64,000 bases of DNA. Origin: Verrucomicrobiaceae bacterium (GTDB taxonomy: Bacteria > Verrucomicrobiota > Verrucomicrobiia > Verrucomicrobiales > Verrucomicrobiaceae). The stretch is taken from the NCBI GenBank assembly GCA_027489965.1, contig JAIXZA010000174.1:1-64000 (forward strand). The letters are read 5' to 3'. The notes beneath the pieces were generated by a model. The model did no database searches, was not told where the DNA came from, and saw only the letters and a list, made by a program, of their open reading frames with translations. How positions within the stretch are numbered: position 1 is the stretch's first letter; each line of letters opens with the position of its first letter. This document shows positions 1 to 33,257 of this stretch, piece after piece. A program made the position numbers and the translations under genes.

Positions 1-3000
1 GTAATCTTATCACCATTGGTTAGATTCCCCGTAAAAGTATCTGCGACAACGTTCAGTGAAGTCGAGCTGAAACTATCGATCTTCGGCACGAAACGAACAT
101 TCACGCCAGCACTGGAAATCGGCAATGCAGCGCCACCAACAGTTGCTGCAATCTGGAATGTGGTTCCGGTTGAACCAACGACGTAATACGCCTTATCCTT
201 TTGTACGCCGCTAGGCAAAGTGGTATCTAAAAAGTAAGGAAAGGTGATCTGTGTCCCGTTGGCAAAGTTACCCGTAAAGGTATCAAGAGCAGGATTAACT
301 GTCGTTTCTTCAGCATCTGTTCCCAAGGCGTTGTTAGCCGTCACCGCAAGAATGCCTTCATTGATGGAGGTTAGACCACTGTAAGAAGCAGCTTTACCAA
401 GCACCCAGGTCCCCGATCCAAGTTTCATTAAACCCGTGATCTCGCTGATGCTTTTATCCCTTAGCTCTAGCAAAAGCGTGTTATCTCCCCTGCCGGTTCC
501 GCCAAGTGTCAGCGTGCGGTTACCGCCATCTTTGAAAGCGATGGGCTGGCTGAGGTCATTAATTTCAGTGAATAAATCCCTGTCTTCGCGACCGAATGTG
601 ATACGCGCTTCTTGATTGCTGCCATTCGCAATGATTGTGGCGCCATTAGCTCCCGTCCCCATCGTAAAGGAGCGGTTGGTTCTTTGCTGGGAAGTCAGGT
701 TAAAAATAAGTGCTGATTTATCAATGAGTAAAAGCCCAGGATTATCACTACTCGCGTAACCAAGCACGCTCTCTGAAATAAAATTATCACTGATTCTTGT
801 GACGGTTACGCTGCCATTACGGATTTCTAAACCATTGGAAAAGTTACTGCTGGTGTTCGTCAGCGCCAGATCTCCAGGCCCTTGTTTGATCAGACGCAAT
901 CCAAACGGTGCATTGAGATCATTTACAATTTTGCTATTCACCGTTTGGTTACTTGAAATATCAAAAATGAGATTGGTCGGAGCAGTAAGATCTATCGGCG
1001 CCTCAGTATTACTGATGGTGGATCCCACCGTATCGGTAATTTGCCGGATCGTTTGTGAAACTCCAGCCAATTGAAGAATGGATGCTCCCAAATTAAGGTT
1101 CAATCCACCTGTTCCTAAAGCATTAGGCGTCTTTAGTTTTAGAATACCTGAAGCCATCGAGATCGGCTGATCAAAACGAGTTCCTCCTAGCCAGGTGTTG
1201 TTTCCTTCAATCGTAATATTCCCCTGCGTTGAGCGTATGCCGCCTGTGAAATTGTTATTTCCAGTGATCACGATATCACCGCCCTGCTGGTTAATACCAC
1301 CGATGGTATTATTTCCCAAAATGGTCAATAACCCATTGTAGTTCGCTGGAGCGACCGTTACGTCTGTTTGAATACCCGTCAAAAAGGTGTTCGAACTGGA
1401 AGCATTTCCAAGCGTCAAACTGTTGAATTGTTGTTCTGAAGAAGAGCGAATACCAACCTCTAATAAGCCTTCAGCATAAATCGGATTCGTGATCGCAAAA
1501 TTAATGACAGGCACTCCATTGACATTGTCTGGATTGCTCGATCCCACCTCAATTCGGCCACCTGTGGTGCCAATCTTGAGTCCGCGGAATCCGTCACTAA
1601 AATTCAAATTCAAATCGTCCGCAGGTAGGGATGATGGAGCAGGGTGCCCGATCTGTAGAGTCCCACCATTGATCTGAATGTGATCTTGCACAAAGGCACT
1701 TGGAGCAGCACCCAGGCTAGCCAAAGACCTGACAAGCAAGGTCCCTGAATTAATATAAGTCTTACCCGTGTAATTGTTGGCACTATTTAGAGTTAGCAGA
1801 CCAGAACCCGATTTTGCTAGGCTAACTGAGCCACCTTTAAAGGTTAGTTCAGTCCCAGTTGTTATCACTGCAGTTGTAGGTGACGTCAGAGTGATACGGT
1901 TGTTGGTATCCACGGTCTCGATACGCGTTCCTGGTGCTATGCCCAGACCCGTAACCGACATCCCAGCCAACAAACCATTCTGGGCAAGCAAGTTCGGCAG
2001 TGTAATCTGGATGGTTCCCACTGGTAGTGAACTACTCAGAACCAAATTGACTTTTGATTCAAAATCTTGGATCGGATTATTGATCGTCAACGAACTGTTA
2101 TTGATGAGATAAAGAGTCTGTGGCGCATTCAAGGCCGTGCCCACAGTCAACATTCCTGTACCACTGATTGTGGGATTTCCACTATTAGCCAAAATTCCTC
2201 CTGATTCCACACTCAGTCGGAATGACAAAACATTAAATGTCCCACCGGTTAAATTCAGTGAATTCACCGTATATGCATTATTTGCTGGTGGATTACTTGT
2301 TGGCGCTGTAAAACCAGACGATTTTACATTCTGGGTTGCATTCCAGGCAGCCGCTCCACCCGTCTGGTAATTTTCGAGTCTGAACACTCCTTTGGTCGCA
2401 TCATAGGTAGCCCAGTCATTTTCGACCGTTGCCCATCCGCCAATAATCCCACCTTTAAGAGTTGGGTTTCTGGTAAACACAATGCGATTGAGAGCATTCG
2501 CGCCAAGAAGACTTGTGTCATCTCCAGATTCATCCTTTCTTCTGGATGAGAAATTCAAGGTTGCCCCGGGCTTCTGTTCGAGTGAACCAAATTGCAGTAA
2601 ACTAGAACCTCCAACACCTGCCGTGGTGGTTCGGATGGTCAATTGGCCTTCTGACAGGAGTAGCTTCCCGATGGATTCTGAATAAGCGACGTTATCGACG
2701 CCATTGTTAGAGAACTCAAATCTACCTCCTTTTGAATTCAGAATGGCAGCGTCATCAATACGGTTCGTGTTATTCTGATTCCGTTCGATGATTCCAGACC
2801 CTGTCCTAGTATTGAAGGTAACTTCATTTCTGATGGTCATGATCCCGCCCAAACCAATATCGAGCTGAGTGCCGCTGAAGGTGCTATTAAGCGAAGTACT
2901 CCAAGTACCTCCAGTAGCAGTACTAAGTCCACCATTGCCTAAAGCGACCGTCCTTCCATTGGCTGAAATGATAGTTTTGATGCGATCAACCGTTCTTAAG

Positions 3001-6000
3001 TCGTTGATTGCGGCACTATCAGCAGCACGCGATACAGCCCAAGTCGCTCCATCTCCTGAGGATAAAATCAGGCCATCCTGGCCGGCAACTAATATCTGCC
3101 CACCCGCTGTGGCTACAGCACTTAGATCAAGACCTGTCCCAGAATTTCGTGAAGTCCAGCCAGAACCATTTCCTGAAGTTAGAATGGCTCCGTAATCACC
3201 CACTGCGATAAATTGTGATCCAGTCCAAAACACATCATCCAATTTGGGTAAGGGTACCTGAATCGGAGTCGCATTCTTGATTTTAGTGACCACCGAGCTT
3301 CCTGAAGCAATAGTGCCCGTGTAAATCCCCAAAGACACTTGAACAGGCGCACTTCCCACATTCAAATTAGGAGCACTGCTCAAAAAAACGGTATCATTGG
3401 CATCGTCCAAGACACTGACATAGAACGGCACGACATTATCTGCTCCTTGGGCATCACCCGTCACGAGAAGCAGCATGCCTTCCGTTAATTCTGAAAAATC
3501 AATAACCCCCGTGATAACGGAAGAATTATTGGTCACCACACCTTTAAATGTCAAAAGCGGCACATCACTCGCATTGCTCAAAGCTGGACTACTAAGTGTC
3601 AATTCATTCAGAGCTGAATTATAGCTGCTAACTGTGACATTACTTGGGATCTTGCCAGTCACAGAAGCCACGCTTTTGCCTTGGGAAAAATGGGTCGTTC
3701 CTGGTCGTCTCTGAATGCTTGGTAGATTGCTCACATTTCGCACAATGGGGTCATTCACCGTCAAATCACCATACAAGACACCAAAGCTCCCTCGGCCTTC
3801 GGTTGGGGGCACCCGAGTCAGCCAGATAATTCTTGAGTCTGGGAATAATCCAAAAATGATGCCTGTCTCGGTTCCATTGAAAGCACTGCCGTGCAGCGCC
3901 ATTCCGACGGCTAAGCCTTTGAAATCACTGACTTCTGTGAGAAGCGAAGAACCTGCGGTAACAACGGCTGTAAAAGTGCGGATAGGTTTGCTGGCTTCCG
4001 TAATGGTGGAGGCAGTCGTCATGGTAAAACCAGTAGCCTCGACACTTCTTACCCTGGTGCCTGCCGGAATACCCGATTCAGCAAACACGGGGATACCCAC
4101 TCTAACCGACTGAATCCCACTTACATTCGTGATCGAATTATTACCTGATGTATTTCCTTTGAAGACTCCAAAACTCACTGCAGTTCCCGCTGCTGCACTG
4201 CCACTCATCGTCACGGTGCTACCAGCAACATCCGTAATGAACTGCCCCGAGGAGTTAAGCGGTGGTGTCTGATTAGACCATGTAATCCCGTCTGGGGAAG
4301 TCAGTAACCGCCCCGCCGTGCCTACGGCAACAAAAGTTGTTGGTGAAGCGCTGATGGAATTTAGTGTGTTAGAAACACCAGAAGTCCGAACGAGCCAAGA
4401 TCCGGTCTCGCCACCGAGAGAGGTGGCAATATAACCAGTCGTCCCAACAACGATCATATTGAACCCGGCTCTAAAAGTAGCTGATGAAGCATTCTGTAAG
4501 GCGTTTTGGGATAAGGTTACATCCGTGCCAGAAATAGCATTGATCACTGTTCCTGGTTGTGTGACTCCGGCCAGAAATACTGGCATACCCACAGACAAGG
4601 TAGCGGCATCTGTAACTCCGGTAACCAATGAGCTATTGATGGTGAATGAACCCGAGGCAATCCGCTCAGTCCGAGTTTGTGTCAGGCTTGCACCTGTGGC
4701 GGTGGCCCTGGCCGTATTTGAAACGGTCAATGTGTTGGCTGTTGTGGCGATGACACGCGTACCAGTAGGAAAGAGTAACCCACGAACTGCCATCTGCGGC
4801 CTGAATGAAGAGACCGACGAAACATTCTGAACTAAAGTGCTATTGGCAGTAAGCGTCCCTCTATAAACACTCAGAGGCGCACTTGGGTTCGTTGCGATCG
4901 CTCCTTCAGAAAGGCTAATCGTATTGGAAGTCATGGCCGTGATGTAAGCGCCCGCAGGTATCCCCTGTCCGGCAAGTATCATGCCGACAGCTAAGCCATT
5001 CGTGTTTGAGACATTCTGGATGACAGCACTATTCAGGACGATATTTCCCGTCAGTGTGAAGAGCCTTACTGAGGTTCCCGATAGCGCAGCAGGCTGAGAA
5101 AGTGTCAGCGTGCTATTGGGGCCATTGACCGTGCTAATGGTTGTCCCAGCAGGTATAAGATTACCACTGGTGATCACAGTTCCTGTGGCCAAGTTTTGAG
5201 CCGTCATGACGTTTGTGATGGTGGTCTGATTGGTGCCAGAAGAAGTCGTTCCTCTGAAGTAACCAAAATCCACATCCGTTCCTACAGCGAGAGGATTGGA
5301 ATCCATGACGACCGAAGTCCCGGAGGCACTGACGATCTGAGTACCTGGCGCCGTGACCAAGCCAAAGATTGGCGTTCCGATGGCATAGCCACTGGCATTA
5401 GCGACATTTTGAATGATCGCAGAATCAACTGTTACATTCCCCGTGAAAGTCAAATTCGCCGATGTTGTGCCATTCAATCCCCGTGCACTTCCAGAATCCT
5501 GAAGACTCCAGTTGATACCGCCATCTGTAGAAGTAAGCACGCGCCCCAGATTCCCGACAACCATCAAGCGCTCCCCTGTCCAGGTGATGGAAGAAAATGC
5601 CACAGCTGCTGGATCCTTATACCGAAGGTCCCATAGCTGACCATCTGTTGAAGTATGAATGGTTCCTTTGGATGTGACCGCAATAAATTGGCGGCCATCA
5701 TGAACCACATCAGCAAAGTTTAACGACTCACCACGAATCGCGCCATCTGTAGCACTGGAGTAATTGATGCTTACTTTTCGCCCAGCTGGAATCACCACCG
5801 GCTGATTCAAGGTTAGGGTACGGCTCGTCAGATTGATGGCCTCAATGCGCGTATTGGCTAGGATTGTAACTCCAGTCGCTGGATTGTTGTCGGTGTTATT
5901 TGATAGAGTAAGAATCGAGCCAACGACCAAATTCGACACATCCGTCAAGGTTAAAGAAGTCCCGTTAGCAGTGTTTTGGACCACACGATCAATCGTACTC

Positions 6001-9000
6001 CCGACTGAATTCAGCCTCAACGAGACACTAGAGAAATCAAAATGATCCGTTGCCTCAACAACAGCATCGAAGGCACTGCCAATACTATTGGCGTTATAGA
6101 TCTGACTGGCGATGGTGGAATTGGCGAAAACATCACGACGTCCACCATCCAGAGAAATATTACCAGCCGACAGGCTAGATCCAATGCTCAAGGATTTGTT
6201 TAAACCAGGCGTGCCGCGCAGGGTTAGACTTTGTTCAATAAAGGCCTTTTCACCACGTAAGCTGCCGTCTCCAGACCGAAAGCTAACGGTACCTTCGAAG
6301 GAGCTTAGTGAGTCCAGATTGGCAGCACCACTATTAAAGCTGAGGTTGCCAGAGCCAAACTTACTCAAGTTGGCTGCGCCCAGCACGGAATCATCAAAGT
6401 TAATGGTCGATCCTTGTGTGTCCACGTTAATCTTCGTGCCGACAGCTGCAATGATGCTACTAGCAAAACTGGTCGTATTGATAAGATTCAGCGTGCCTCC
6501 ATTCAAAAGAGTAGAACCTGTGTAGGAGATGTTACCTCCACGTAGGGTTAATGAGCCCGTGCCATTTTTAGTGAGTCCCAGTTTACCAGTGCCAGAGCCA
6601 CCGGCTCTATTGCGGACAAAACCACCGATAAAAGAATCCAGATTGTTTCCACCCAAGGTTAAGACCGCACTTCGATTGACAGTCTCACCTTCCATGTTTT
6701 CAAGCACCAGAGAGGATCCAATGTCCATGATATTACCAATCGTCTCATTACCACCCATCAGTTTAAAATAGGCCCAGCGATTCGAAGCGCCATCCGCGAT
6801 GACTGTAGCCATATCAGCGATTTGATTTCCCTGGTCGCTTGCAGGAAAACTGGTAGAAAGCACTCGATTCTCTAACAATTGAAGTACGGCATTGCCCGCA
6901 CTGCCTAGGCTGGCACTTCCGATGCGGACATTCCCAAAGGCAGCGCCACCAGTAACGCCAAGCTCCACCTGGGCTCCAGTGCCTGTGCCACCACGATTCT
7001 GCAGCCACAAGTCTGACAGTGACGAAACCGCATTACCACGAACAGTTAAAATCCCATTTCCAGTGCTAACGAAATCACCGGTTCCAGAGAGCCCGCCACT
7101 CAGCGTCAGACGACCAGCATTCACCCGAATATTAAGCTCTTCATCGGTGTAGATACGGGCACTAATGACATCCTGATCTCCCTGGGCCTTATTAATGAAT
7201 GATTTACCACCACCGATGCCTCCCATGGCAAAAGTGAGTGCATTCGCAACACCGCCTGAACCCGCACTCAAGGTGATGTCTTGATCTTGAAAGGAATCTC
7301 CGATGGTTAGCACCCCGACGGTTCGAGGAGCTTCGAGAGCAATGTTTGCACCAGCCGTGTCATTGTTAAAATAAACATATGAGCCGATACCACCAGGAGC
7401 TGGATAGACGCTTCCCAAAAAGCCTGTAGGAGCGGCCAGGGTTACAGATGGATTAGATGTGTATCCCGAGCCCGGCTGGGTGATTGTGATGGCAGCAATC
7501 GTACCCGTTTCACTCAAAACAGCCGTTGCGGTTGCTGGTATGGCTCCGCCGCCAGTGGTTAATGCTAATAAAGTGACTGCACCACCTTCAACGCGGGCAG
7601 CAGCTGTCGCTGCAGTCGAATTAGCGGGAGGATAGGCGATGGCGACAGTGGGAGCAGAGATCAAACCTGCACCACCATGAAGCACCGTAAAGCCTGTGAC
7701 TTTGCCAGAAGTAATAGAAGACGAGACGACAGGCCAAGTGATTCTGCTCAAAGTCACTGTCGGTGCGCTCGTGTATCCAAAGCCGCCTGATGTGACCGTA
7801 ATAGAAGTGACTTGATTGCCTGTCAGGTTAGCCCTGGCAACCGCACCCGAGCCACCCCCACCCTGAAAAATAACCGCTGGGGGGACGTCATAACCAGTTC
7901 CCCCCTGTAGGACAGTGACTGTAGAAACGACGAATCCCACGAGCGCTGCCGAAGCTGTAGCACCACTCCCATTAGACGTAAATATCACCGTCGGTGGGCT
8001 AGTGTAGCCACTTCCCGCTGAAGTCACCGTTACTGAAGTCACTTTATTGCCTGTCAAATTTGCAGTCGCAGCAGCACCTGAACCACCACCACCCTGAAAA
8101 GCAACGATAGGAGCAGTCGTGTAGCCATCTCCAGCATTCAGCACACTCACAGCTGAAACCGCATTTCCCGTGAGTGTGGCGTTTGCGATAGCTCCCGTAA
8201 TTCCATTTGAGATGAAGGAGACGCTAGGAGCAACAGTATAACCCTCACCACCAGGAGTTAGCGCTATAGAAGTGACTGCACCCCCAGTTAAAGTGGCTGC
8301 GGCTGTGGCAGCGATACCACTATTGGGAGCCGCAGTCATCGAAACGGTCGGGGCAACGGTATGACTGGCACCGCCATAAATGATGTTAAAGGAAGAGACT
8401 CTGCCCGCCGAAATGTTTGAGGTGGCGATTGGATAAGTCACTCCATTGGAAGTAAAGGTTACATTGGGGGTACTTGTGTATCCACTGCCAAAAGCGGTCA
8501 TGGTAATTGAAGTCACTCTGCTACCTGTAAGGACGGCTGTTGCTGCAGCTCCCGAACCACCACCACCCTGAAAATTAACCGTAGGCGGTGCAACATAGCC
8601 GTCACCACCGTCCACAATTGAAACGGCGGTAATCGTATTGCCTGATCGGGTCGCTGTGGCAATGGCCCCCTTGATCCCATTGGAAACAAATGAAACTCGC
8701 GGAGCTGCGGTATAGCCCCGCCATCCGCTGGTGCCAATCGAGACTGAAGGCACAGAGACGTAGCCAGCGCCAGGATTGGTGACTGCAATTTCAGACAAAG
8801 CGTTGCCAGCACGAGATGCACTGGCTTGGGCTGTACGAAGCAATGTTCGGCCAAAGTCCATGGTTGGAAGTGATGTGAATCCATAGCCGCTCTGATTAAG
8901 ATCAATGGATGACACCGCACCTTCGGCCGTGAGATTCACGGTAGAGACGACACCACCAGCACCACCAGGAGCGGTGAGCGTCACCTCTGTAACCTGACCA

Positions 9001-10238
9001 TCCTGAATTTCAGCGACGGCTTCTGTGCCAGCGTGACTGATGATCCCGACTTCCCCTCCTCCCGCAGAAAAACGCACTTGAGGTGGATCCAGGTAGCCTG
9101 CGCCTGGTGAGAGGATTTCAATGCCCGTAACAACACCATCTTCCGTGACGGCCACAGCTGAAGCAGGCGAAGTTGGCGGTGTTGCCGTGATCGTCACGGT
9201 GGGTGTGGAGGTATACCCAGAACCTTCATTGGTCATCACGTAACCAACCACGCGCCCAACACCTGCTGTTGATGTGAAAACCACCGCACTGCCAGGCGTA
9301 GTAATCAAATCAACAGGGGCGCCGCCGATGCTTGTGGCAACCTGGAAAGTGGTCCCTGAAGAATTGATCACAAAATAACGCTGAGTCAGAGAGATTCCAC
9401 CTGGAGGTACATCACTACCAGAAAACTCAACCGGGGTATCATTGGCTGGAGCTGCTCCCACGACGGTAAAAAGGTCCGTCGCAATGTCAGCGGTAACATC
9501 CACATTAATATCACCCGTAATCACCGGTGTGGCTGTAGCCCCAGTGCCACCTCCGCCCGTAATCGTTACTTGCGTGCCATTCTTACCATACCCAATGCCC
9601 ACATTTCCTGGATTAATGGCCGTGATCTTATCTCCAGTTCTGACAGCTGTAGCAGTAGCCCCCGTTCCTGGCGTAAAGCTTACGTTTGGTGGAACGGTAT
9701 AACCACCTCCGCCTTGGAAAAACAGCTGCGGGTTCCCCGTGTAACCAGAACCACCGCGCGAGACTGTGACTTGGGCTAATTCAGACGTAATTGTAACGGT
9801 AGGCGTAGCCGTATAGCCCCCACCTTTTGAAATGACTTTGATACCAGTAATGACCCCACCCGAGATCGTCGCCACGGCTCTTGCACCATAGCCGCCCGTT
9901 GTACCACCAGTAATGATCACTGTCGGGGCTACTGTGTACCCGCTTCCGCCATTGATCAGATTCACCGCTGTGATTTCACCACGGCCATTGCGCACCGCCG
10001 AAGCAAGTGCGACGGCCTTACGTGTCACGGAAAGTTCGGCAGCTCTGAGTGGGGATGTTGTGGACCACTGGCTCAAATTACCTCCCCACGTTCCGCCTCC
10101 GCTACTACTCCATGAACCATTCACACTGACTTGAGCGTTGATTGGCAAAGCAATGGCAAGAATACCGAGCCCTAAAAAAGGCCAAATTTTCCAATGATCG
10201 GCTCTCGATTGAGTCTCGGTTTGAGATAGTGCCTTCAT
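1..10238 (-). CDS. Giant secreted beta-strand repeat protein (autotransporter-associated repeat type), partial
   Basis: The frame stays open from an ATG at 10238 to the left edge, more than 3400 codons, and the C-terminus lies outside. I checked it at about ten points and found one unbroken frame. Residues 1-35 form a long signal peptide with a hydrophobic core (FLGLGILAIALPINA). Next come about 20 copies of a GxGYTxxPTV motif with glycine-rich spacers, up to roughly residue 930. Then follow beta-helix-like stretches with autotransporter-associated repeats (for example TLRGGNISYTGSTLLNGGTL), three pairs of propeller-like blades (TSTDGGINW, TSPDGITWS), and many modules of the form NVS..GL.VGM..GIPAGT. 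The last part again carries autotransporter-type repeats (SANNYTGKTYINSGTL). Probably a surface or adhesive structure. Whether it ends in a beta-barrel or a sorting tail cannot be seen. Its G+C is visibly lower than in neighbouring housekeeping genes. The prepilin-like gene starts upstream and ends 48 bases before this ATG. Confidence 0.88.
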   Translation of the reverse strand, partial: MKALSQTETQSRADHWKIWPFLGLGILAIALPINAQVSVNGSWSSSGGGTWGGNLSQWSTTSPLRAAELSVTRKAVALASAVRNGRGEITAVNLINGGSGYTVAPTVIITGGTTGGYGARAVATISGGVITGIKVISKGGGYTATPTVTITSELAQVTVSRGGSGYTGNPQLFFQGGGGYTVPPNVSFTPGTGATATAVRTGDKITAINPGNVGIGYGKNGTQVTITGGGGTGATATPVITGDINVDVTADIATDLFTVVGAAPANDTPVEFSGSDVPPGGISLTQRYFVINSSGTTFQVATSIGGAPVDLITTPGSAVVFTSTAGVGRVVGYVMTNEGSGYTSTPTVTITATPPTSPASAVAVTEDGVVTGIEILSPGAGYLDPPQVRFSAGGGEVGIISHAGTEAVAEIQDGQVTEVTLTAPGGAGGVVSTVNLTAEGAVSSIDLNQSGYGFTSLPTMDFGRTLLRTAQASASRAGNALSEIAVTNPGAGYVSVPSVSIGTSGWRGYTAAPRVSFVSNGIKGAIATATRSGNTITAVSIVDGGDGYVAPPTVNFQGGGGSGAAATAVLTGSRVTSITMTAFGSGYTSTPNVTFTSNGVTYPIATSNISAGRVSSFNIIYGGASHTVAPTVSMTAAPNSGIAATAAATLTGGAVTSIALTPGGEGYTVAPSVSFISNGITGAIANATLTGNAVSAVSVLNAGDGYTTAPIVAFQGGGGSGAAATANLTGNKVTSVTVTSAGSGYTSPPTVIFTSNGSGATASAALVGFVVSTVTVLQGGTGYDVPPAVIFQGGGGSGAVARANLTGNQVTSITVTSGGFGYTSAPTVTLSRITWPVVSSSITSGKVTGFTVLHGGAGLISAPTVAIAYPPANSTAATAAARVEGGAVTLLALTTGGGAIPATATAVLSETGTIAAITITQPGSGYTSNPSVTLAAPTGFLGSVYPAPGGIGSYVYFNNDTAGANIALEAPRTVGVLTIGDSFQDQDITLSAGSGGVANALTFAMGGIGGGKSFINKAQGDQDVISARIYTDEELNIRVNAGRLTLSGGLSGTGDFVSTGNGILTVRGNAVSSLSDLWLQNRGGTGTGAQVELGVTGGAAFGNVRIGSASLGSAGNAVLQLLENRVLSTSFPASDQGNQIADMATVIADGASNRWAYFKLMGGNETIGNIMDIGSSLVLENMEGETVNRSAVLTLGGNNLDSFIGGFVRNRAGGSGTGKLGLTKNGTGSLTLRGGNISYTGSTLLNGGTLNLINTTSFASSIIAAVGTKINVDTQGSTINFDDSVLGAANLSKFGSGNLSFNSGAANLDSLSSFEGTVSFRSGDGSLRGEKAFIEQSLTLRGTPGLNKSLSIGSSLSAGNISLDGGRRDVFANSTIASQIYNANSIGSAFDAVVEATDHFDFSSVSLRLNSVGSTIDRVVQNTANGTSLTLTDVSNLVVGSILTLSNNTDNNPATGVTILANTRIEAINLTSRTLTLNQPVVIPAGRKVSINYSSATDGAIRGESLNFADVVHDGRQFIAVTSKGTIHTSTDGQLWDLRYKDPAAVAFSSITWTGERLMVVGNLGRVLTSTDGGINWSLQDSGSARGLNGTTSANLTFTGNVTVDSAIIQNVANASGYAIGTPIFGLVTAPGTQIVSASGTSVVMDSNPLAVGTDVDFGYFRGTTSSGTNQTTITNVMTAQNLATGTVITSGNLIPAGTTISTVNGPNSTLTLSQPAALSGTSVRLFTLTGNIVLNSAVIQNVSNTNGLAVGMILAGQGIPAGAYITAMTSNTISLSEGAIATNPSAPLSVYRGTLTANSTLVQNVSSVSSFRPQMAVRGLLFPTGTRVIATTANTLTVSNTARATATGASLTQTRTERIASGSFTINSSLVTGVTDAATLSVGMPVFLAGVTQPGTVINAISGTDVTLSQNALQNASSATFRAGFNMIVVGTTGYIATSLGGETGSWLVRTSGVSNTLNSISASPTTFVAVGTAGRLLTSPDGITWSNQTPPLNSSGQFITDVAGSTVTMSGSAAAGTAVSFGVFKGNTSGNNSITNVSGIQSVRVGIPVFAESGIPAGTRVRSVEATGFTMTTASTITEASKPIRTFTAVVTAGSSLLTEVSDFKGLAVGMALHGSAFNGTETGIIFGLFPDSRIIWLTRVPPTEGRGSFGVLYGDLTVNDPIVRNVSNLPSIQRRPGTTHFSQGKSVASVTGKIPSNVTVSSYNSALNELTLSSPALSNASDVPLLTFKGVVTNNSSVITGVIDFSELTEGMLLLVTGDAQGADNVVPFYVSVLDDANDTVFLSSAPNLNVGSAPVQVSLGIYTGTIASGSSVVTKIKNATPIQVPLPKLDDVFWTGSQFIAVGDYGAILTSGNGSGWTSRNSGTGLDLSAVATAGGQILVAGQDGLILSSGDGATWAVSRAADSAAINDLRTVDRIKTIISANGRTVALGNGGLSTATGGTWSTSLNSTFSGTQLDIGLGGIMTIRNEVTFNTRTGSGIIERNQNNTNRIDDAAILNSKGGRFEFSNNGVDNVAYSESIGKLLLSEGQLTIRTTTAGVGGSSLLQFGSLEQKPGATLNFSSRRKDESGDDTSLLGANALNRIVFTRNPTLKGGIIGGWATVENDWATYDATKGVFRLENYQTGGAAAWNATQNVKSSGFTAPTSNPPANNAYTVNSLNLTGGTFNVLSFRLSVESGGILANSGNPTISGTGMLTVGTALNAPQTLYLINNSSLTINNPIQDFESKVNLVLSSSLPVGTIQITLPNLLAQNGLLAGMSVTGLGIAPGTRIETVDTNNRITLTSPTTAVITTGTELTFKGGSVSLAKSGSGLLTLNSANNYTGKTYINSGTLLVRSLASLGAAPSAFVQDHIQINGGTLQIGHPAPSSLPADDLNLNFSDGFRGLKIGTTGGRIEVGSSNPDNVNGVPVINFAITNPIYAEGLLEVGIRSSSEQQFNSLTLGNASSSNTFLTGIQTDVTVAPANYNGLLTILGNNTIGGINQQGGDIVITGNNNFTGGIRSTQGNITIEGNNTWLGGTRFDQPISMASGILKLKTPNALGTGGLNLNLGASILQLAGVSQTIRQITDTVGSTISNTEAPIDLTAPTNLIFDISSNQTVNSKIVNDLNAPFGLRLIKQGPGDLALTNTSSNFSNGLEIRNGSVTVTRISDNFISESVLGYASSDNPGLLLIDKSALIFNLTSQQRTNRSFTMGTGANGATIIANGSNQEARITFGREDRDLFTEINDLSQPIAFKDGGNRTLTLGGTGRGDNTLLLELRDKSISEITGLMKLGSGTWVLGKAASYSGLTSINEGILAVTANNALGTDAEETTVNPALDTFTGNFANGTQITFPYFLDTTLPSGVQKDKAYYVVGSTGTTFQIAATVGGAALPISSAGVNVRFVPKIDSFSSTSLNVVADTFTGNLTNGDKI
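7438..9955 (-). repeat. GxGYTxxPTV coding repeat array within the giant protein
   Basis: Some 20 imperfect copies of a short motif (GGSGYTVAPTV, GSGYTSTPTV, GDGYVAPPTV, GEGYTVAPSV and similar) recur every 30-70 residues. They are separated by spacers such as FQGGGGSGAAATA and LTGNxVTSITVTS. Some blocks are long-range duplicates: three related stretches around 7735-7910, 7965-8110 and 8425-8590 share the same order of spacer and motif. The pattern suggests growth by duplication of one- and two-motif units. Confidence 0.8.
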
Positions 10239-10286
10239 AAAGTGAATGAAAAATGTTATGCTAGAATCAACCAATAGATCAAAAAA

Positions 10287-10832
10287 CTATTTCCGAGTTT
10301 TGGCTATCAACTGGGTGAATCTCTTCACTGGAATTGCCGGAGGTGGCTGATCAAAGTTAAATTGCTGATCTTGAGTGACTGCCACCTCGACCTGCACACG
10401 ACGCAGAAACGGATTCGTCAAATTACTGTTGGATGGAAGTCGTGCACCCCGACCAATTTCATTCTGATCAACGAGGCGAACACGTGCCAAATAAACCAAA
10501 TTATCCAAGTTGCCATTACCAGCTCCAAGCTCTAATCCCTGATCATCAAAGTATTTGAGGATAACATTACTTGATGCAGCACTGACTATTCCAGACATCG
10601 TGGTCCAGTCAGCAGCCTGCACTTCACCAATCAATTGATCTACAATTCTCGTTTCAGCCTGCTCATTGGCCGTCTTACGGGACATTTCCATGCCGTGAGG
10701 GAGCAGGCCAAGAATGGTCACCACACCCAGGGCCATGATGCCGACGGCTAGCACCACTTCTACCAGCGAAAACCCTGCATTGCGTAAGGCGACGACATTA
10801 GAGTGAGCTGGATGGTTGATTTGTGTTTTCAT
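10287..10832 (-). CDS. Prepilin-like protein, Verru_Chthon cassette protein B type
   Basis: A 181-residue protein with a type IV prepilin N-terminus. A 20-residue polar leader ends in glycine, followed by FSLVEVVLAVGIMALGVVTI: Phe at +1, Glu at +5, then one hydrophobic helix. A prepilin peptidase would be expected to cut at Gly-Phe. I chose the ATG at 10832 because the in-frame start at 10913 would put 27 extra residues before the leader. Family knowledge, recalled: Verrucomicrobia carry multi-gene cassettes of pseudopilins (Verru_Chthon A-D), and this resembles member B. Other members would have to lie beyond the left edge. The gene ends 48 bases before the giant repeat protein on the same strand, so the two are probably co-transcribed. 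A general type II secretion pseudopilin is the alternative. Confidence 0.8.
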   Translation of the reverse strand: MKTQINHPAHSNVVALRNAGFSLVEVVLAVGIMALGVVTILGLLPHGMEMSRKTANEQAETRIVDQLIGEVQAADWTTMSGIVSAASSNVILKYFDDQGLELGAGNGNLDNLVYLARVRLVDQNEIGRGARLPSNSNLTNPFLRRVQVEVAVTQDQQFNFDQPPPAIPVKRFTQLIAKTRK

Positions 10833-10986
10833 GGAAGCTGGGATGGAGAGAGTTTGCGCTACTGGATTGGACCTAAATCCTGAATTTGTGTTGAGAATAC
10901 CAAAAATGCCCACGTACCGTCAATCTAAATACATGGTAAATACCAGCCTATCGGCCGAAAAAGACACTTTTCACCGAACTGGGGAT

Positions 10987-12415: not shown

Positions 12416-14695
12416 TTAGGGTCTCTGGAGCATCATCCGCAGCCTCTGAGCATCAGCAAAACCGGGATCAATGCTAAGGGCCCGCTCAGCCGCAGCGGTA
12501 GCTTCGGTTTTCTGGCCGAGTTGAGCGTGGATGGTGGCTCGGGCATAGGGGATGGAAGAATCACCTGGCTCCGCGACTTCACCTTGTCTTAAAGCAGCGA
12601 TTGCCTCAGCCGTCTGGCCTAGTTGATTGAGCGCCAGACCAAGATTGTACCAAGCCCGAGCAAAACGTGGCTGCACACGGACGCATTCACGCAAAGCTGA
12701 CACAGTGGCAGTGAGGTCGCCTGTTTCACTATAGGCTAGCCCCAGTTCATAGTGATACTGCGCTTCATTGGGGGCCAGCTTAATGGCGTCTTGCAACTTT
12801 TGAATCGTCCGAGTTTGATTACCACTCGCGTTATAAAGCATGGCCAGATCATGATGGAAAGGCGGCGAATTCGGATCCCAGGAGACAGCGGTCTCCATGT
12901 GCTTGATCGCGCTCGGCACATCACGCCTAGCAAAATTAAACTGCCCGAGCTGCATCTGGCCACTCGGTTGATCAGCATTCAGTTGCAGCATGTGTTGCAG
13001 ATCCTTTCCAGCTGCGGAGTTCAGATCTACCGTGTCACGCAAAGCCCACGCAGCAGCCACTCGCACGCTGCGCGCTGGGTCATTCAAAAGAGCCTCCATG
13101 CTGGTGCGCACACCTGGAGCTTGCATGGCAGGCTCCAGGCTGCGGGCAGCAGATTGGCGCACCAACGGATGCTCATGCTTCAGCTGGGTGCGTAGAGCCT
13201 CAGTCACTGGCGGCTGATCCACCCAGCGGTCGAGCACCAGACTTGTGCTAGCCTTCCAGTGCGGCATTTCATCACTGTCTAGCAGCGCAATCAGACCATC
13301 ACGCGCCGTTTGGTCCCCCTGCCGAGCTTTGGCGATGAGTGTGGCCCGTGTCCTCGTTTTTCGATTCATCTTCTCTCCCCACCACTTTTCTGTGGCAGCC
13401 AGAGACCACTCATTGTCTTTATCCTGATGACATTTATTGCAGGCATTTGGCACTCCAAACTGCTTGGTCAACAAGGGATCAGGAATGGTAAACCCATGAT
13501 CATGGCGCGGATGCCGCTGCATGTAGGTCGTCTGCGGCATGTGACAATTGATGCACTGATTGCCAGCGCTGGCAGCCTGATGAAAGCTATGCATTTCAGG
13601 AAGAATCACAGGAGCCTTTGGGAATCCACCAGCGGTGTGGCATCTCATGCAAAGTTGGTTACCTGTGAGGATCGTCTTCATGCTATGCATGTCGTGACAA
13701 TCCATGCAGCGCACGCCTGAGTGATACATGCGGCTGCTGATGAAACTGGCAAACTCATAGTCTTCATCACGAATCTGCCCATCTGGATAATAGATGTCAC
13801 TGCCATCCGTGATTGTGAGTTGATAGTGATCCCAAAAAGATTCACCCGGAACAAAATCACCGGTCACTTCCCCGCGCCGAGCATGACAGCCTGCGCAGTT
13901 CTCAGTGTGTTGATCCCGTGTCCAGTTGGTTTTGATGGCTGGATTCAAGGTGTGGGCCTTCATCGGCCCATGACAGGACTCACAGCTGACCGTCATCTCG
14001 GCCATCGTCGTCTTATAAGTGTCTGTCGGTGGATCGTAATTTTTGCGGACGCGAGTGTTGTGGCAGCTCGCACACATCTGATTCCAGATCATGCCACGCC
14101 CCGTCCAGTGGCCCCATTCCCCCGGTTTGCGGTCCTCGTTGCCATACACATTGAACCAGTCACCCCGCAGCGGATCAAAGCAGGCCTCCATGGTGTGCAG
14201 CGCTCCCCGTGGACCTTTGACCAAAAACTGCCGCAGCGGATCATGTCCGATGACACGCTCCACAGGATAAGCCTCGACCTTATCTCCAAAGCCGAGAGAG
14301 GTGAGCTGATACAGCTGATCTTTTTTCTCTGCCTTTGTCGTCTGCGATCCGTGTTGGAAGGACTTAGACGGAGAAAAAGCCGACAAATCCAGCTCATCAT
14401 TCGGCTTCCGCTCCGCCAGTCCGTGGTGTGATCCTTTCCACTTCTCAAACTCCACCGCATGACACTGTTTGCAGGAATCCGAGCCCGCATATTCAGCGAA
14501 AACAGCCTTTTCATCAGACATGACAAAGGGCGTAACTGCCTTGGCTGGCAGAACGTCCACAGGCACCTCCGTATAATTTTTTTCAGGCCATAACGCCCAT
14601 CCGATCAGACCAACGATCACGAGAAGAACAGCAACGAGCACTAGACCTGCTTTTACATTGGCAGGTGCTTCAGGTGTCGGGACAGATTTCTTCAT
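12416..14695 (-). CDS. Octaheme cytochrome c fused to HEAT-like and TPR repeats
   Basis: A 759-residue protein. Residues 17-36 are one hydrophobic helix (signal anchor), so the rest is periplasmic. Eight CxxCH haem-binding motifs lie between residue 75 and about 420: CKQCH, CASCH, CESCH, CAGCH, CMDCH, CMRCH, CINCH, CNKCH. The middle, about 455-590, has helical repeats with HEAT character (HPLVRQSAARSL, RSVRVAAAWALRD). The last 165 residues are TPR units (AQYHYELGLAYSETGD, ARAWYNLGLALNQLGQ). The haem part resembles the cytochrome c-554/hydroxylamine-oxidoreductase-like group of multihaem proteins. The substrate is not evident, and an electron-transfer role is inferred. It is last in a minus-strand run, 84 bases after the OmpA-domain gene. 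Confidence 0.9.
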   Translation of the reverse strand: MKKSVPTPEAPANVKAGLVLVAVLLVIVGLIGWALWPEKNYTEVPVDVLPAKAVTPFVMSDEKAVFAEYAGSDSCKQCHAVEFEKWKGSHHGLAERKPNDELDLSAFSPSKSFQHGSQTTKAEKKDQLYQLTSLGFGDKVEAYPVERVIGHDPLRQFLVKGPRGALHTMEACFDPLRGDWFNVYGNEDRKPGEWGHWTGRGMIWNQMCASCHNTRVRKNYDPPTDTYKTTMAEMTVSCESCHGPMKAHTLNPAIKTNWTRDQHTENCAGCHARRGEVTGDFVPGESFWDHYQLTITDGSDIYYPDGQIRDEDYEFASFISSRMYHSGVRCMDCHDMHSMKTILTGNQLCMRCHTAGGFPKAPVILPEMHSFHQAASAGNQCINCHMPQTTYMQRHPRHDHGFTIPDPLLTKQFGVPNACNKCHQDKDNEWSLAATEKWWGEKMNRKTRTRATLIAKARQGDQTARDGLIALLDSDEMPHWKASTSLVLDRWVDQPPVTEALRTQLKHEHPLVRQSAARSLEPAMQAPGVRTSMEALLNDPARSVRVAAAWALRDTVDLNSAAGKDLQHMLQLNADQPSGQMQLGQFNFARRDVPSAIKHMETAVSWDPNSPPFHHDLAMLYNASGNQTRTIQKLQDAIKLAPNEAQYHYELGLAYSETGDLTATVSALRECVRVQPRFARAWYNLGLALNQLGQTAEAIAALRQGEVAEPGDSSIPYARATIHAQLGQKTEATAAAERALSIDPGFADAQRLRMMLQRP

Positions 14696-25332: not shown

Positions 25333-28300
25333 ATGTCGATGAAATTCAAGATTATTCTGTCCTTGGCCCTGCTTTTCACGGATGCAATCATTGCATTTCA
25401 AGCACAACATCTCGCGCTGCCGGATAATGGTGCGGAGCCGCATGATCGCTTTGGCTCTGCCGTTGCTTCGTCTGGTGATTGGTCTGCCATTTCTGCTCCC
25501 AATGACAGCTCAGGTACTGAAAATGCCTATGGCTCTGTTTACATGTATCAGAGAGTTGCTGGGGAATGGTTGCTGCGACAGAAGCTCAGTCAACCAGAGC
25601 CTAGAACGAAGCAGTCTGCTTTTGGCAGAGTCACTGCCATGGACGCTGGCACATTGATCGTATCCTGCGGAGATGGCGTGATGGTTTACCTGCTTCAGGA
25701 AGGCCAATGGCGCTATCAGACGACCGTGATCACCCGAGATTTCGGAATAAGCTCACTAGCTATCAGAGGTGGAACTCTGGCCATTGGGCTCGCTCATGAG
25801 GAGCAATCGGCAGTGAGTGTTTACTCAGGCCAGGGGGCTGCGTGGTCCCAAGAAGCGGTACTGACAAGTCAGCCTGGTGCGGGGATAGAAAACTTCGGCA
25901 GGGCTTTGGCTCTGGATGATACGAGCCTGCTCGTCGGGGCACCTGAAGGCACAGGGCGGGTTTATGTTTTTGAAAAGGTCTCTGGTTCGTGGTCTCGCAC
26001 GGGCGTCCTAACCCAGCCGGACTGCCGGGGCTTTGGCTCAAGTGTCGTGATTCATGAAACGCGGGCGATGATCGCTGCACCACATTATGAAGGATATCAG
26101 AATCCAGATATCCTTGGCCGAGTTTGCTTTTACCAACACAGGACGTCTGGCTGGGAATTCGAACGGGCCGTGCGTCCGGCACCTTCGGGCAGTCCGCCCG
26201 TGGAGAGCGAGCTCACGAGTCTGATCGCGTTGAATAACGAGATTGCCATTTTTGTTAGCGCGCAGGACTCGGTCTTCACAATGACTTTGAGCGGAGCACC
26301 AGAATCGTGGATCCTCCGTGAAAGAGGTGAAAACATCGTGGCAGATGCGCTTGTACCGGTAGCTGCACCTACAACTCCGAATAGTCTATCGGCCATGTGG
26401 ATGGATGATTTCGAACTGGTGTTGCCTAACCCTGGTCGCCCCGTGCTCAGAATCACCCATGCAGTGAAGACTCTAGTGGCAGGTGAATTGTGGCATGGAT
26501 CTTACACCTATGGACCAGGCTCTGCGCCGCCCGATAACCTGGGATGGATCACCCGTTATATTCGCCAAGGCAATACTTGGGTGGCACCACAAATACAGCC
26601 AACGCTGCAACCGCCACGATCACTGCTGCAGGATAATCAAGGCTTTGGCACACCTCTTTTATCAGAAAATCTGGCCGTAATCAGGGTGCCTGATCGCCCA
26701 GACCTGACACGAGTCCGAACCATGGTGAGAGTACAGGGACTCTGGCAATGGGGCCAATTCGACGGAACACAGATTCAAGATGAGCCTGTGGCACTTCATG
26801 GAAATCGCCTTTTGACCACCAGAATCTATTATCAGGGCGACGCACGAAGAAGAGTTCTGACTCTTTTCCAGAATGACGGTGCCGACTGGATCAAGGAAAC
26901 GTCGTTTGATATGGAGCAGTCCTATGGTGCAGCGACGTCCTTTAACTGGGGGCTAGACTTGAATAGCGGGCTTGCGCTTGATGGTGACACTCTGGCCTTT
27001 AGCAAGACGACCGGAAACGGCACTACCAATCATATCAGAATTCTCCATCATGATGGAACTGCATGGCGCGAGGAGGCTCAGCTTGCAGTACCCAATCAAG
27101 GTAGTTTTGTGGGAGCGCTCTTGGCTTTAGAGGGCGATACTTTGGCCATCGCAGGTAAGCATCCTAGCGCAAACCTGCTGCTTTATCGCCGGATTAATCT
27201 GCAATGGACACTGGAGGCTACCTTTGCCGCAAATGCGCAGCCAGTGAAGAATACGCCAGAGAAAAACAATCAGCTTCTCGCCCTGCACGGAAAACGTGTG
27301 GCGGTCAGCAGTGTCATGAACGGGCGCTACGGCGTGCAGGTCTATGAGCGAAATGGTGCGACATGGAAGCGGCTGCCTTCACCAGTGCTAGCCTCGAGTC
27401 TTTTCCCCACGGCGCTGAGCTGGGCGGGGGAGGCGCTTTTGATCGAGACTGACAAAAAGCCTGGTAACGATGCCGCCCTCTGGGTCCTGCCAGGTGGCAC
27501 ATGGAAGGCACGCTCATCACTTCGCGCATCCGTCGGTCCTGAGGACACGATCCTCGCTAGAAGTGCGACGGAAGAGACCGTGATGCTGCTCAACCTGACT
27601 AAAGTCATCGAAACGTCCAACATGTTTGGCTCCACGTACAACACCTCAGATGCACCAGAGATTCTGTTTTATGACCTAGGCTCCATATCCGTTCAAGATG
27701 GTCCCGATCGTGTGATCAGCCCATCACTGGCGGGAGGCTCTACCATTGACTTTGGTTCAGTGATGATTGGAGAGACCACCACGCGGGTGATCACACTGAG
27801 CAACGACACACCTTTACCATTTACTCTCAGGTCAGTGACCTTCAGCGGCTCAGCAGCAGCGGACTTTAAGCTGGCTGTTCCTGTGACCACGATCAATACT
27901 GGGGAAAATAAAAGCTTTCGCTTGGAGCATGTGCCCAGCAGAGAGGGAAGTCGGGAAGCAACACTCCTAATCCAGGGCTCCATCCGCCCACTGTCCTTTC
28001 GTCTGTCATCCCTGGCAGTGACGCAGCGTGTGCAGCCGCAGATCCAGATGCTGACGACGGACTTTTTAAAACCTGAAGCTGAGGCATTGACCTTAAACCC
28101 CTCCATCACCGGCACGCACCCCTATGGATGCCAGTGGCAGAAAAACGGACGTGTTCTGCCAGGTGCCATCTATCCAGCTCTGCACCTGGGTTCTTTGAAA
28201 AGCACGGATGCTGGACTTTACCAACTCATCATCGACAACCCTACAGGCGAGATCAAAGGACCGGAGATCGCAGTGGGTGTCTATCGGCCAGTGAAGCAAG

Positions 28301-29868
28301 ACATCACGGCTAAACCAGGGCAGCCCGTCGTTATGAAAGCCTATGCATGGGGACCAGGCTTGATTTGGCAATGGTATGGCAATGAATCTGCTTTCAGTCG
28401 AGGTAACCGCACAGATACTTTGCGGTTACTTAACCCAGAAGCACAGCCGACTGAGTGGGGTGTTTCAGTTCAAATGCGTTATATCAATGCCGAGGTAGCC
28501 CGTTTTACGGTCGCCACCACTGAGATACCTGCCACGCCATCAATCGGTTGGATGGGAAACTGGTCTCTGGGTGAGAGTGTGGAAGGTTTTCAAGTCAACT
28601 CCAGCGAGGGAAACCCCGAGTATCTGGCGACAGGTCTACCGCCTGGAGTACGGCTGAATTCAAAGACTGGCTTGCTATCGGGTGCGCCGAATCGTGTGGG
28701 CATCTACCGCATCGAATGGCGAGTCAGAGCGCGTGGCTTGACCAGTCTTCCCTTCGTCGCTACTGTATCTGTCGATACCTATGTTTATAGTGCTGGCCTT
28801 CATGCGGGGATGTTTTCAGCTAGCCGTTATCTACCTCAGGGCGGTTTTGCAACTCTGATCATGACTACATCTGGAGCATATAGCCTGAAGTTGCAAATTG
28901 GCGCACGCATCTATCGGAGCACGGGTTCCCTAGGCCGAGAGATCTCCCAACGGGATCGTTTCTTGGCACCTTTCCCGGGCACAACAAAGACCGTGCTTCG
29001 AATAGATAACTCATTATCGCTTGATCTATTTTTTGAACTTGGACCCGATACTTTCGATCAAGCTGGTACTTCATTAGTGCCCATTAAAGCCGATGGAATC
29101 CAAGGCAGCCCACTGCCCAGAGGCTTACTTTTCACTCAACCGCTCAATCCAACTTACCAGGAAAACATCCCCGTCCTGTATCAAGGCAGCGGCTTTGCTA
29201 GCATTCGCATGACTGGGGAAGGAACGGCTAACCTCGTCGGCACACTACCTGACGGAACAGGCATTACCGCCACAGGCCCAGTCGTATCGGCCTCGTATTT
29301 CGTGGATCCGATCAGTGATTCATTGCTCCTCTATTTTTGCCCCTCCGCTTCCTCAAACTGGGTCATGGGAAGCGTTGATCTGAATTCTCTTCGTGGCAAA
29401 TTCTACGAAGACTCGACGGTTGATTTGATCTGGGGTTACAGAAATCAGGCTGCCGCTCCTGATTTTGATCAGATCCAACTCAAAGGAGCCGGGGCACCCT
29501 ATTTCCCGCCTGCACCAGGAATGCTTCTATTCCCCGCGCTGAATGAACCAGGATTTAAGTTCCGCATGAGTTTTTCCGGCGCCGGATTGAGCGAGGATAT
29601 CGCGTCTATCGGACAGCTGTCACGAACTCAAAAAGCCCTATTTGCCTTGCCAAACACAAGCCGTACCAAGGTGGATTTCCATATTCCTACTGGCTTCTTC
29701 ACCGGCAGCTTTTCTGTCAGAGTACCCCTGAGAAAGACCCTAAACTTCCGCGGCATGGCAGTCCCCTATAGAAACGAAGGCCACGGTCTCTTCATCAACC
29801 GCGGAACGGATGGTAAAGTCCGCACCGGCAAAGTCTATCAAGACGCGACTTCGATTCTGGAGCCTTGA
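25333..29868 (+). CDS. Large secreted FG-GAP / Ig-like multidomain protein
   Basis: A 1511-residue exported protein with a signal peptide (MSMKFKIILSLALLFTDAIIA). Residues about 30-780 contain FG-GAP-like repeats: RFGSAVASSGDWSAISAPND, LALDGDTLAFSKTTG and LALEGDTLAIAGKHPSANLL are clear units. About 786-893 is a choice-of-anchor-D-type domain (IDFGSVMIGETTTRVITLSN). About 896-986 is an Ig-like fold (CQWQKNGRVLPGAI then STDAGLYQLIIDNPTG). About 1090-1142 is a putative-Ig unit (ATGLPPGVRLNSKTGLLSGA). The last 360 residues repeat a beta-rich module seen in verrucomicrobial secreted proteins (LPQGGFATLIMTTSG, QGSGFASIRMTGEG). No enzymatic motif is visible; probably a surface or polysaccharide-binding protein. 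It stands alone, 128 bases after lysC. Confidence 0.82.
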   Translation: MSMKFKIILSLALLFTDAIIAFQAQHLALPDNGAEPHDRFGSAVASSGDWSAISAPNDSSGTENAYGSVYMYQRVAGEWLLRQKLSQPEPRTKQSAFGRVTAMDAGTLIVSCGDGVMVYLLQEGQWRYQTTVITRDFGISSLAIRGGTLAIGLAHEEQSAVSVYSGQGAAWSQEAVLTSQPGAGIENFGRALALDDTSLLVGAPEGTGRVYVFEKVSGSWSRTGVLTQPDCRGFGSSVVIHETRAMIAAPHYEGYQNPDILGRVCFYQHRTSGWEFERAVRPAPSGSPPVESELTSLIALNNEIAIFVSAQDSVFTMTLSGAPESWILRERGENIVADALVPVAAPTTPNSLSAMWMDDFELVLPNPGRPVLRITHAVKTLVAGELWHGSYTYGPGSAPPDNLGWITRYIRQGNTWVAPQIQPTLQPPRSLLQDNQGFGTPLLSENLAVIRVPDRPDLTRVRTMVRVQGLWQWGQFDGTQIQDEPVALHGNRLLTTRIYYQGDARRRVLTLFQNDGADWIKETSFDMEQSYGAATSFNWGLDLNSGLALDGDTLAFSKTTGNGTTNHIRILHHDGTAWREEAQLAVPNQGSFVGALLALEGDTLAIAGKHPSANLLLYRRINLQWTLEATFAANAQPVKNTPEKNNQLLALHGKRVAVSSVMNGRYGVQVYERNGATWKRLPSPVLASSLFPTALSWAGEALLIETDKKPGNDAALWVLPGGTWKARSSLRASVGPEDTILARSATEETVMLLNLTKVIETSNMFGSTYNTSDAPEILFYDLGSISVQDGPDRVISPSLAGGSTIDFGSVMIGETTTRVITLSNDTPLPFTLRSVTFSGSAAADFKLAVPVTTINTGENKSFRLEHVPSREGSREATLLIQGSIRPLSFRLSSLAVTQRVQPQIQMLTTDFLKPEAEALTLNPSITGTHPYGCQWQKNGRVLPGAIYPALHLGSLKSTDAGLYQLIIDNPTGEIKGPEIAVGVYRPVKQDITAKPGQPVVMKAYAWGPGLIWQWYGNESAFSRGNRTDTLRLLNPEAQPTEWGVSVQMRYINAEVARFTVATTEIPATPSIGWMGNWSLGESVEGFQVNSSEGNPEYLATGLPPGVRLNSKTGLLSGAPNRVGIYRIEWRVRARGLTSLPFVATVSVDTYVYSAGLHAGMFSASRYLPQGGFATLIMTTSGAYSLKLQIGARIYRSTGSLGREISQRDRFLAPFPGTTKTVLRIDNSLSLDLFFELGPDTFDQAGTSLVPIKADGIQGSPLPRGLLFTQPLNPTYQENIPVLYQGSGFASIRMTGEGTANLVGTLPDGTGITATGPVVSASYFVDPISDSLLLYFCPSASSNWVMGSVDLNSLRGKFYEDSTVDLIWGYRNQAAAPDFDQIQLKGAGAPYFPPAPGMLLFPALNEPGFKFRMSFSGAGLSEDIASIGQLSRTQKALFALPNTSRTKVDFHIPTGFFTGSFSVRVPLRKTLNFRGMAVPYRNEGHGLFINRGTDGKVRTGKVYQDATSILEP

Positions 29869-32900: not shown

Positions 32901-33257
32901 ACCGTCACCGTCCCACACCAAATCTGCGGCAATTATGTCAATCCATCGCGGACTCTTTACATCGGCGGCCGTGAAAAAGACAAAGCCAGTCTCTGGCACG
33001 GCGCCATCGCCCGCGTCATGCTTCACCAAGGCTCCCTTGAGGCAGGACAACTCATGACCTGGACCGGCATGAATAATCCCACCTGTTTACTTGATCTGAA
33101 TGCCGACAGCGCCACTGAGATGCTAAAAACCGCCTGGAAATGGGAAACCAGCGCTCCTATCACCACCCCCAAAGGCAAAAGTGATCCCAACCGTGAGGCC
33201 ATCACCGACCTCTGCCACGTCCTGCTTAATGCGAACGAGTTCTTCTATCTTCAGTAA
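29964..33257 (+). CDS. PSD1/DUF1549/DUF1553 cytochrome-like protein with internal LamG domain
   Basis: A 1097-residue exported protein with a signal peptide (LLSRLLLITVLLTTVGQAA). It opens with the planctomycete cytochrome C domain (PSD1; CQECH near residue 45), then DUF1549 (FASWVDKLLASPHYGERWAQ, VQCAQCHDHKFDPI) and DUF1553 from about 575 (NWLTRPENPLTTRVIVNRLW). Residues about 835-1065 are a LamG/concanavalin-like jelly roll (FSIEAVVNLNSLYPNGSVRT, TLYIGGREKDKASLWHGAIA). The final 15 residues (DLCHVLLNANEFFYLQ) are the normal end of DUF1553, so LamG interrupts that domain. These proteins are common in Planctomycetes and Verrucomicrobia; their substrate is unproven. The usual DUF1501 partner gene is not next to it. 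Confidence 0.9.
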   Translation: MNAPLLSRLLLITVLLTTVGQAAPSPEAIKFFENKIRPILVESCQECHAEKKHKGELRVDNLPYLLQGGHSGPAVVPHKPEDSVLIHAVSYSDPDMEMPPDGKLPDDQIAALKQWILMGAPWPEAEVAAAKMGRRPGDITGEDRKWWAFQPVSNPPVPKTGAHHPVDAFIQTELTKNKLQTSPEATPHELIRRLTFDLHGLPPEPSVVDQFVQEYNAAKAQDKLDQTPSSQTHADGVFASWVDKLLASPHYGERWAQHWLDLTRYAESEGYRLDSYRPNVWPYRDYVIQSLNDDKPYDQFVREQLAGDEIAPNDPKTVIATAFLRHTIYEYNQRDVETQWRNILNEVTDVTADVFLGMSVQCAQCHDHKFDPILQKDYYRLQSFLANITWPEDKKLATPAEIKAHDDQMKIWLAATVEPRAIIDRIIEPRIEKAQTHAMEIFPEEVVAMWKKPKEQRTPYEEQIVQLAWRQAEYERYRFKTDKIKDPEATQLKDAQIKLAEFDHLKPASLLTAYAIGETGPKARDATFKTRKSGQTEAKPGFLTILDPTDATIPEPKPGMTTSGRRTVLANWLTRPENPLTTRVIVNRLWQYHFGRGIVATPSDYGHLGEKPTHPELLDWLTTQFIQGGWKMKPLHKLILTSAAYRQSALVSQPSAMQTDPENKLLWRFPPRRLDAEQSRDAILAASGELDSTIGGEGVEAAKPRRSIYTRKMRNTQDAFLQSLDAPPGFASVPTRDATTTATQSLLMINGDWPLERSAAMASRLIASKPANDAQIIELAYDLTFSRNPTPKEKSAALSFLSTQRARLKKELPAQAPLVPALTDAKTHLGSTAASKTVKTLWMQPGTPNEKLQVKNPSQIEGDKFSIEAVVNLNSLYPNGSVRTIASRWDNDKASAGWALGVTSEKSAHKPNNLIVQLVGEDFQRSLVYEVVPSGLRVPLNKPYYVAVEISNEPAEGQKFGGTVTFYLRDLSDPAAPMQTVTVPHQICGNYVNPSRTLYIGGREKDKASLWHGAIARVMLHQGSLEAGQLMTWTGMNNPTCLLDLNADSATEMLKTAWKWETSAPITTPKGKSDPNREAITDLCHVLLNANEFFYLQ

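Follow-up and report, generated by a model that had tools for sequence, protein, structure and literature searches.

Can a beta-propeller be assembled from blades that lie hundreds of residues apart in a single chain? The question is raised by a giant gene at the start of contig JAIXZA010000174.1 (Verrucomicrobiaceae bacterium, assembly GCA_027489965.1), the first 64,000 nucleotides of which form the stretch analysed here, referred to as the window. The open reading frame (ORF; 3..10274, minus strand, 3,424 aa) is open-ended at window position 1, where the contig starts, and is predicted to encode a secreted protein. A sequence-only reading of this DNA had reported three pairs of motifs resembling BNR/YCF48 propeller blades between 3000 and 5750, set some 300 residues apart by what it took for interleaved beta-helix modules, and had offered two explanations: six blades joining into one propeller from distant parts, or pairs that stand on their own. 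Both the motif pairs and their separation (spacers of 329 and 333 residues) were found as described. We consider it probable, at about 0.78, that the region forms one ordinary seven-bladed Asp-box (YCF48-like) beta-propeller, the chain of which is interrupted twice, giving a hub with two arms.

Seven blades in three groups

The six motifs lie at ORF residues 1533, 1572, 1942, 1983, 2357 and 2396 (about 5678, 5561, 4451, 4328, 3206 and 3089 in window plus coordinates), on the minus strand like every feature of the giant gene given below. Pfam, run untuned over the whole ORF, places DUF6242 and YCF48 (PSII_BNR) at the same residues (E 6e-5 and 0.007), which bears out the likeness to BNR/YCF48 blades. 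Asp-boxes follow the form S/T-x-D-x-G-x-x-W and sit in the loop that joins strands 3 and 4 of a blade; they are represented here by TSTDGQLW, TSTDGGINW, TSPDGITW, TSGNGSGW and SSGDGATW in blades 1, 2, 4, 5 and 6, respectively. That of blade 5 lacks its Asp in this species and carries it in others, and those of blades 3 and 7 are degenerate.

A blade profile, built from blades 1, 2, 4, 5 and 6 of the orthologues and then widened by two rounds of searching, yields seven anchors at residues 1520, 1560, 1930, 1971, 2345, 2384 and 2432, in groups of two, two and three, with steps of 39-48 residues inside the groups and of 370 and 374 over the inserts. The first group comprises blade 1 (5607..5723, residues 1518-1556) and blade 2 (5481..5606, residues 1557-1598), scoring 45 and 42 bits with the blade hidden Markov model (HMM), and is followed by a putative strand A of blade 3 (5454..5480, residues 1599-1607), which stands directly in front of the first insert at the expected spacing of 39-40 residues from blade 2. 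Strands B-D of blade 3 (4371..4466, residues 1937-1968) come after that insert and match the blade profile at 94.7% with hhalign, or at 94.9% once joined to the putative strand A; blade 4 (4254..4370, residues 1969-2007; 48 bits) completes the second group. Beyond the second insert lie blade 5 (3132..3254, residues 2341-2381; 50 bits), blade 6 (3003..3131, residues 2382-2424; 29 bits) and a degenerate blade 7 (2856..3002, residues 2425-2473, VALGNGGLSTATGGTW), which the sequence-only reading had missed. Blades 3 and 7 score poorly as single sequences; hhalign matches blade 7 to the other blades at 92%, and gives 0.1-1.3% for three insert repeats compared with the blade profile as controls. This seventh blade, found by the profile anchors and by hhalign, rules out a six-blade ring; Asp-box beta-propellers are closed rings of 6, 7 or 10 blades, and the count here would suit a ring of seven.

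The spacers are not beta-helix modules, as had been supposed, since they consist of small beta-domains, tandem GIPAGT-type (GM) repeats of ~65 residues with the form GNxTxNSxxITNVSNxxGLxVGMxxxGxGIPxGTxI...TLTLS. Insert 1 (4467..5453, residues 1608-1936, 329 residues) holds five complete repeats, whilst insert 2 (3255..4253, residues 2008-2340, 333 residues) lies in the blade 4-5 linker and holds a half, four whole and a further half repeat. Another GM repeat occurs just before the propeller (5796..5972; repeat HMM 19.6 bits).

The blade motifs recur at equal spacing in nine orthologous loci (40-99% identity over the aligned region) and are therefore not a product of chance. The loci sharing the arrangement belong to Verrucomicrobiaceae, including Prosthecobacter and the cultured Brevifollis gellanilyticus; in the family 13 of 68 genomes gave a match, and in a draw from the order 10 of 190 did. 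The bulk of the matches come from one genus-level group, and the sole match outside that genus (G056) is an uninterrupted array. Across species the three blade groups measure 97-98, 71-75 and 133-139 residues and the inserts 271-438, with blades better conserved than inserts in 44 of 45 row pairs. The total is seven blades in each relative that covers the region, including where an insert sits elsewhere: in genome G046, for example, blade 3 is whole, a single GM repeat lies inside blade 4 and the second insert is kept, yet there are again seven blades.

Uninterrupted relatives show the same habit. Loci L077 and L078, from the same family, each have 14 blades at a 39-residue pitch, arranged as two sevens whose last blade is weak; L079 has seven in a row at its start and G056b has 14 blades. 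The interrupted array resembles these in blade type, in pitch and in its seven blades with a weak seventh, but the uninterrupted arrays have no inserts and usually amount to two propellers in tandem, like type 3 Asp-box proteins. A 5,187-aa frame from another genus (L069/L071, G056:C2) carries 14 uninterrupted YCF48-like blades; this array starts with a lone D-strand, GSTWTLRNP, and its last blade has no D-strand, as expected for Velcro closure.

One ring or separate pieces

When both inserts were cut out in silico, the remaining 302 residues matched Ycf48 (5ojp_A) continuously over both junctions (phmmer, E 8e-5), whereas the intact region gave a 54-residue match with E 3. Similarly, the match to PF14870 (PSII_BNR) grew from one 63-residue piece to 235 residues once the inserts were removed, with scores of 16.1 bits for the whole ORF, 20.7 for the region and 24.8 with the inserts removed, all below the gathering cut-off of 27, and DUF6242 (PF19755) scored 23.4, 29.4 (1,000-aa region) and 33.8 bits in the same order, against a gathering cut-off of 29. 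YCF48/HCF136 (PF14870; 5ojp, 2xbg) is the best-matching solved family by sequence and likewise has seven blades; it differs in being uninterrupted, and the protein described here stays below the Pfam cut-off even without inserts and has no photosystem context. The role of YCF48 is in photosystem II assembly, whereas the host of the giant protein belongs to a non-photosynthetic group.

Predicted structures agree with the sequence matches on the nature of the blades. In the AlphaFold2 models each group forms four-stranded meanders packed in sequence that correspond to runs of two or three blades in solved propellers. Blades 1-2 align structurally with YCF48 (5ojr_D; Z 11.8, 1.9 Å over 78 residues), and for blades 5-7 the match is to three blades in a row in several solved propellers (2.2-2.9 Å over 105-113 residues). 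The models thus favour blades and disfavour a beta-helix, and say nothing firm on ring closure. A continuous beta-helix, like the regions of PATR repeats that flank the blades, was the outcome that the sequence-only reading had set against its own proposal, and the presence of PATR repeats in the same protein gives it some footing. However, all PATR matches fall outside the blade region, the structural matches are mostly propellers, with YCF48 at the top for blades 1-4, and the sequence matches are to YCF48 and DUF6242, leaving a beta-helix barely credible.

The first strand of blade 3 was placed by scoring every one of the 334 possible junctions and averaging the scores of eight orthologues; the best cut falls after residue 1606, directly before insert 1 (z 5.3). 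Several results nevertheless count against a single ring. The margin of this junction test is small (4.85 vs. 4.45 bits), with strands inside the inserts coming close, and the position of the first strand in front of insert 1 is for that reason supported, not proven. On its own, blade 7 gets a negative score from the blade HMM, and the uninterrupted arrays L081, L083 and L084, together with the later parts of L079, do not fall cleanly into sevens. AlphaFold2, run on an alignment only ten sequences deep, did not bring the groups together: pTM reached 0.27 when the 1,000-residue region was modelled whole and 0.41 when the model covered blades 1-4 plus insert 1, and alignments of the models to YCF48 over the inserts had root-mean-square deviations of 18-20 Å. 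Structure prediction, the check that had been proposed for this region, therefore supports the blade fold and leaves packing over the inserts undecided, so that ring closure is something we infer.

Such models would suit a protein in which the blade groups are small beta-sheet modules that stand alone between GM-domain arms and form no ring, and the 330 residues between groups would suit it too. Free-standing units could vary in number, yet the total is seven in all relatives covering the region, even with an insert elsewhere; the break in blade 3 seems to fall within its sheet, which would leave the second group starting with an incomplete blade. Two to three blades alone would also expose their packing faces, and two-bladed pieces of other propellers, when isolated, form oligomers (PMC6805158), which together make independent pairs or groups an unlikely answer. 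That propeller fragments can assemble as homo-oligomers (PMC6805158) would in turn fit a ring closed between molecules by domain swapping, or with a further array of blades within the giant protein, which carries DUF5122 propeller repeats elsewhere. The chain already contains a full set of seven blades in normal order and needs no partner, and the DUF5122 blades are of a different family; we regard a shared ring of either kind as quite improbable. We thus favour a single propeller made within one chain from distant parts, as one of the two original explanations held, with seven blades in place of six.

The statement that no such arrangement was known proved too strong, as single propellers with a domain inserted into the chain already form a named class, the type 2 Asp-box beta-propeller, represented by Vibrio cholerae sialidase (Quistgaard and Thirup 2009, PMC2716378). 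Both have Asp-boxes in the loop joining strands 3 and 4 and, here by our reading, a single propeller interrupted by inserted beta-domains; the sialidase has six blades and a lectin-like insert, whereas here there are seven blades, two inserts of about five tandem domains each and no sign of an enzyme. We therefore see an elaborate version of a known interrupted-propeller design and not a new fold, the new elements being two multi-domain inserts, probably on opposite faces, and a conserved Verru_Chthon cassette around the gene. Understanding of the propeller fold itself is unchanged, but a toroidal fold would here tolerate two very large insertions, one of them probably within a blade, in a chain of more than 7,000 residues. 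It is also a caution that motif scans can break one propeller into seeming fragments. A search of the literature for giant proteins of Verrucomicrobia that bear propellers or beta-strand repeats returned nothing relevant.

Tandem repeats as two probable arms

If the seven blades close into one ring, blades 1 and 2 and the first strand of blade 3 would be made first, and the chain would then leave through the A-B hairpin of blade 3 into an arm of five ~65-residue GM domains. It would come back for the remainder of blade 3 and for blade 4, exit again in the linker that joins blade 4 to blade 5 into a second arm of about five domains, and come back again for blades 5-7, which would close the ring. 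In the standard propeller topology the A-B and C-D loops lie on one face and the B-C and D-A loops on the other; with insert 1 in an A-B loop and insert 2 in a D-A linker, the two arms would emerge from opposite faces. Insert 2 opens with the C-terminal half of a GM repeat and closes with the N-terminal half, in the same register in genome G010, and the split halves, if joined, might form a single circularly permuted domain that clamps the arm at its base. Tandem duplication of a unit of one blade pair plus one arm was considered because the inserts are nearly equal in length (329 vs. 333 residues); it is not favoured, since the insertion points (inside blade 3 vs. the linker of blades 4 and 5) and the repeat register differ between them.

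Pfam holds no model for the GM repeat, and a search of PHROGs with it gave weak matches of mixed kind. The model of the last GM repeat of insert 1 (pLDDT about 90) matches the capsid decoration protein of Arthrobacter phage Bridgette (8eci chain 1) with Z 9.0 and 2.1 Å over 69 residues, and the same chain is the best match to the sequence profile of the GM repeats, at a weak E of 0.035. As two different methods agree, a shared domain type is likely, although sequence homology is weak, and the decoration protein sits as a single domain on the capsid whereas the GM repeats are tandem copies built into arms. The fullest version of this architecture, a twice-interrupted seven-bladed propeller bearing a five-domain, phage-decoration-like arm on each face, its insertion site mobile between species and its blade number fixed, is offered tentatively, at somewhat short of even odds. 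If true, it would be a naturally occurring modular hub from which long surface structures could be built, with the insertion site moving from blade to blade. A family in which that site has shifted between species makes a question of propeller evolution testable, namely whether blade number stays constant as accessory domains are gained and lost.

The giant gene and its neighbours

A candidate ATG near 10238 is followed by a signal-peptide-like stretch, and orthologous frames run to 7,194-8,032 aa; the C-terminal 810 aa are present as a fragment on a separate contig of the same genome (G000 contig C102). The contig starts inside the giant gene, and a contig of the 99% identical genome G039 likewise ends inside it, so repeats within the gene probably break assemblies. 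The ratio of non-synonymous to synonymous substitution rates (dN/dS), measured against an 86% identical orthologue, is 0.12-0.13, indicating purifying selection. As in Type V autotransporter passengers, the protein carries PATR/autotransporter-associated repeats (PF12951 and TIGR02601 in Pfam/NCBIfam, four stretches each; one beta-strand repeat stretch lies at 342..425), but in the last 4,321 aa of the orthologue from G010 there was no Pfam/NCBIfam match (E 0.01) to an autotransporter C-terminal outer-membrane beta-barrel. The C-terminal half, seen in the orthologue L027 (G010:C2:132001-148000), contains a second propeller type, DUF5122/delta-60 repeats (173 bits), and an Ig-like domain (Ig_3). 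The N-terminal part (window 7500-10000, ORF residues about 90-900) is made up of numerous repeats, ~40-60 residues each, that follow the pattern GGSGYTxAPTVTFxGGGGxGAxATAxLxGxxVTxIxV.

Immediately upstream of the giant gene, and in the same orientation, lies the gene for a pilin-like Verru_Chthon cassette protein B (10287..10913, minus strand; TIGR02598, 97 bits vs. a cut-off of 51). In the orthologues B is upstream and A downstream, with the order Verru_Chthon B, giant protein, Verru_Chthon A kept at loci L028, L030, L032, L037 and L038, and D lies near A in G046. Proteins A and B have pilin-like or pseudopilin-like N-termini, and the conserved order suggests that the cassette handles or anchors the giant protein. 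From the signal-peptide-like start, the PATR repeats, the DUF5122 propeller, the Ig-like domains and this cassette, we infer a secreted protein held at the cell surface. The propeller unit is then most likely a rigid hub displaying its arms there, and the likeliest role, by analogy, would be in adhesion or ligand capture. Integrin alpha offers a parallel, a seven-bladed propeller used for ligand binding, with an I domain inserted between blades, but it has an unrelated blade family and one insert, and is a eukaryotic receptor.

Elsewhere in the window, 12416-14695 (minus strand) encodes a protein with multihaem cytochrome motifs and HEAT and TPR repeats. A 1,511-aa protein at 25333-29868 (plus strand) combines FG-GAP_2 repeats, another propeller type, with an ASH-like stretch, and is adjoined by a PSCyt1/PSCyt2/PSD1 protein at 29964-33257.

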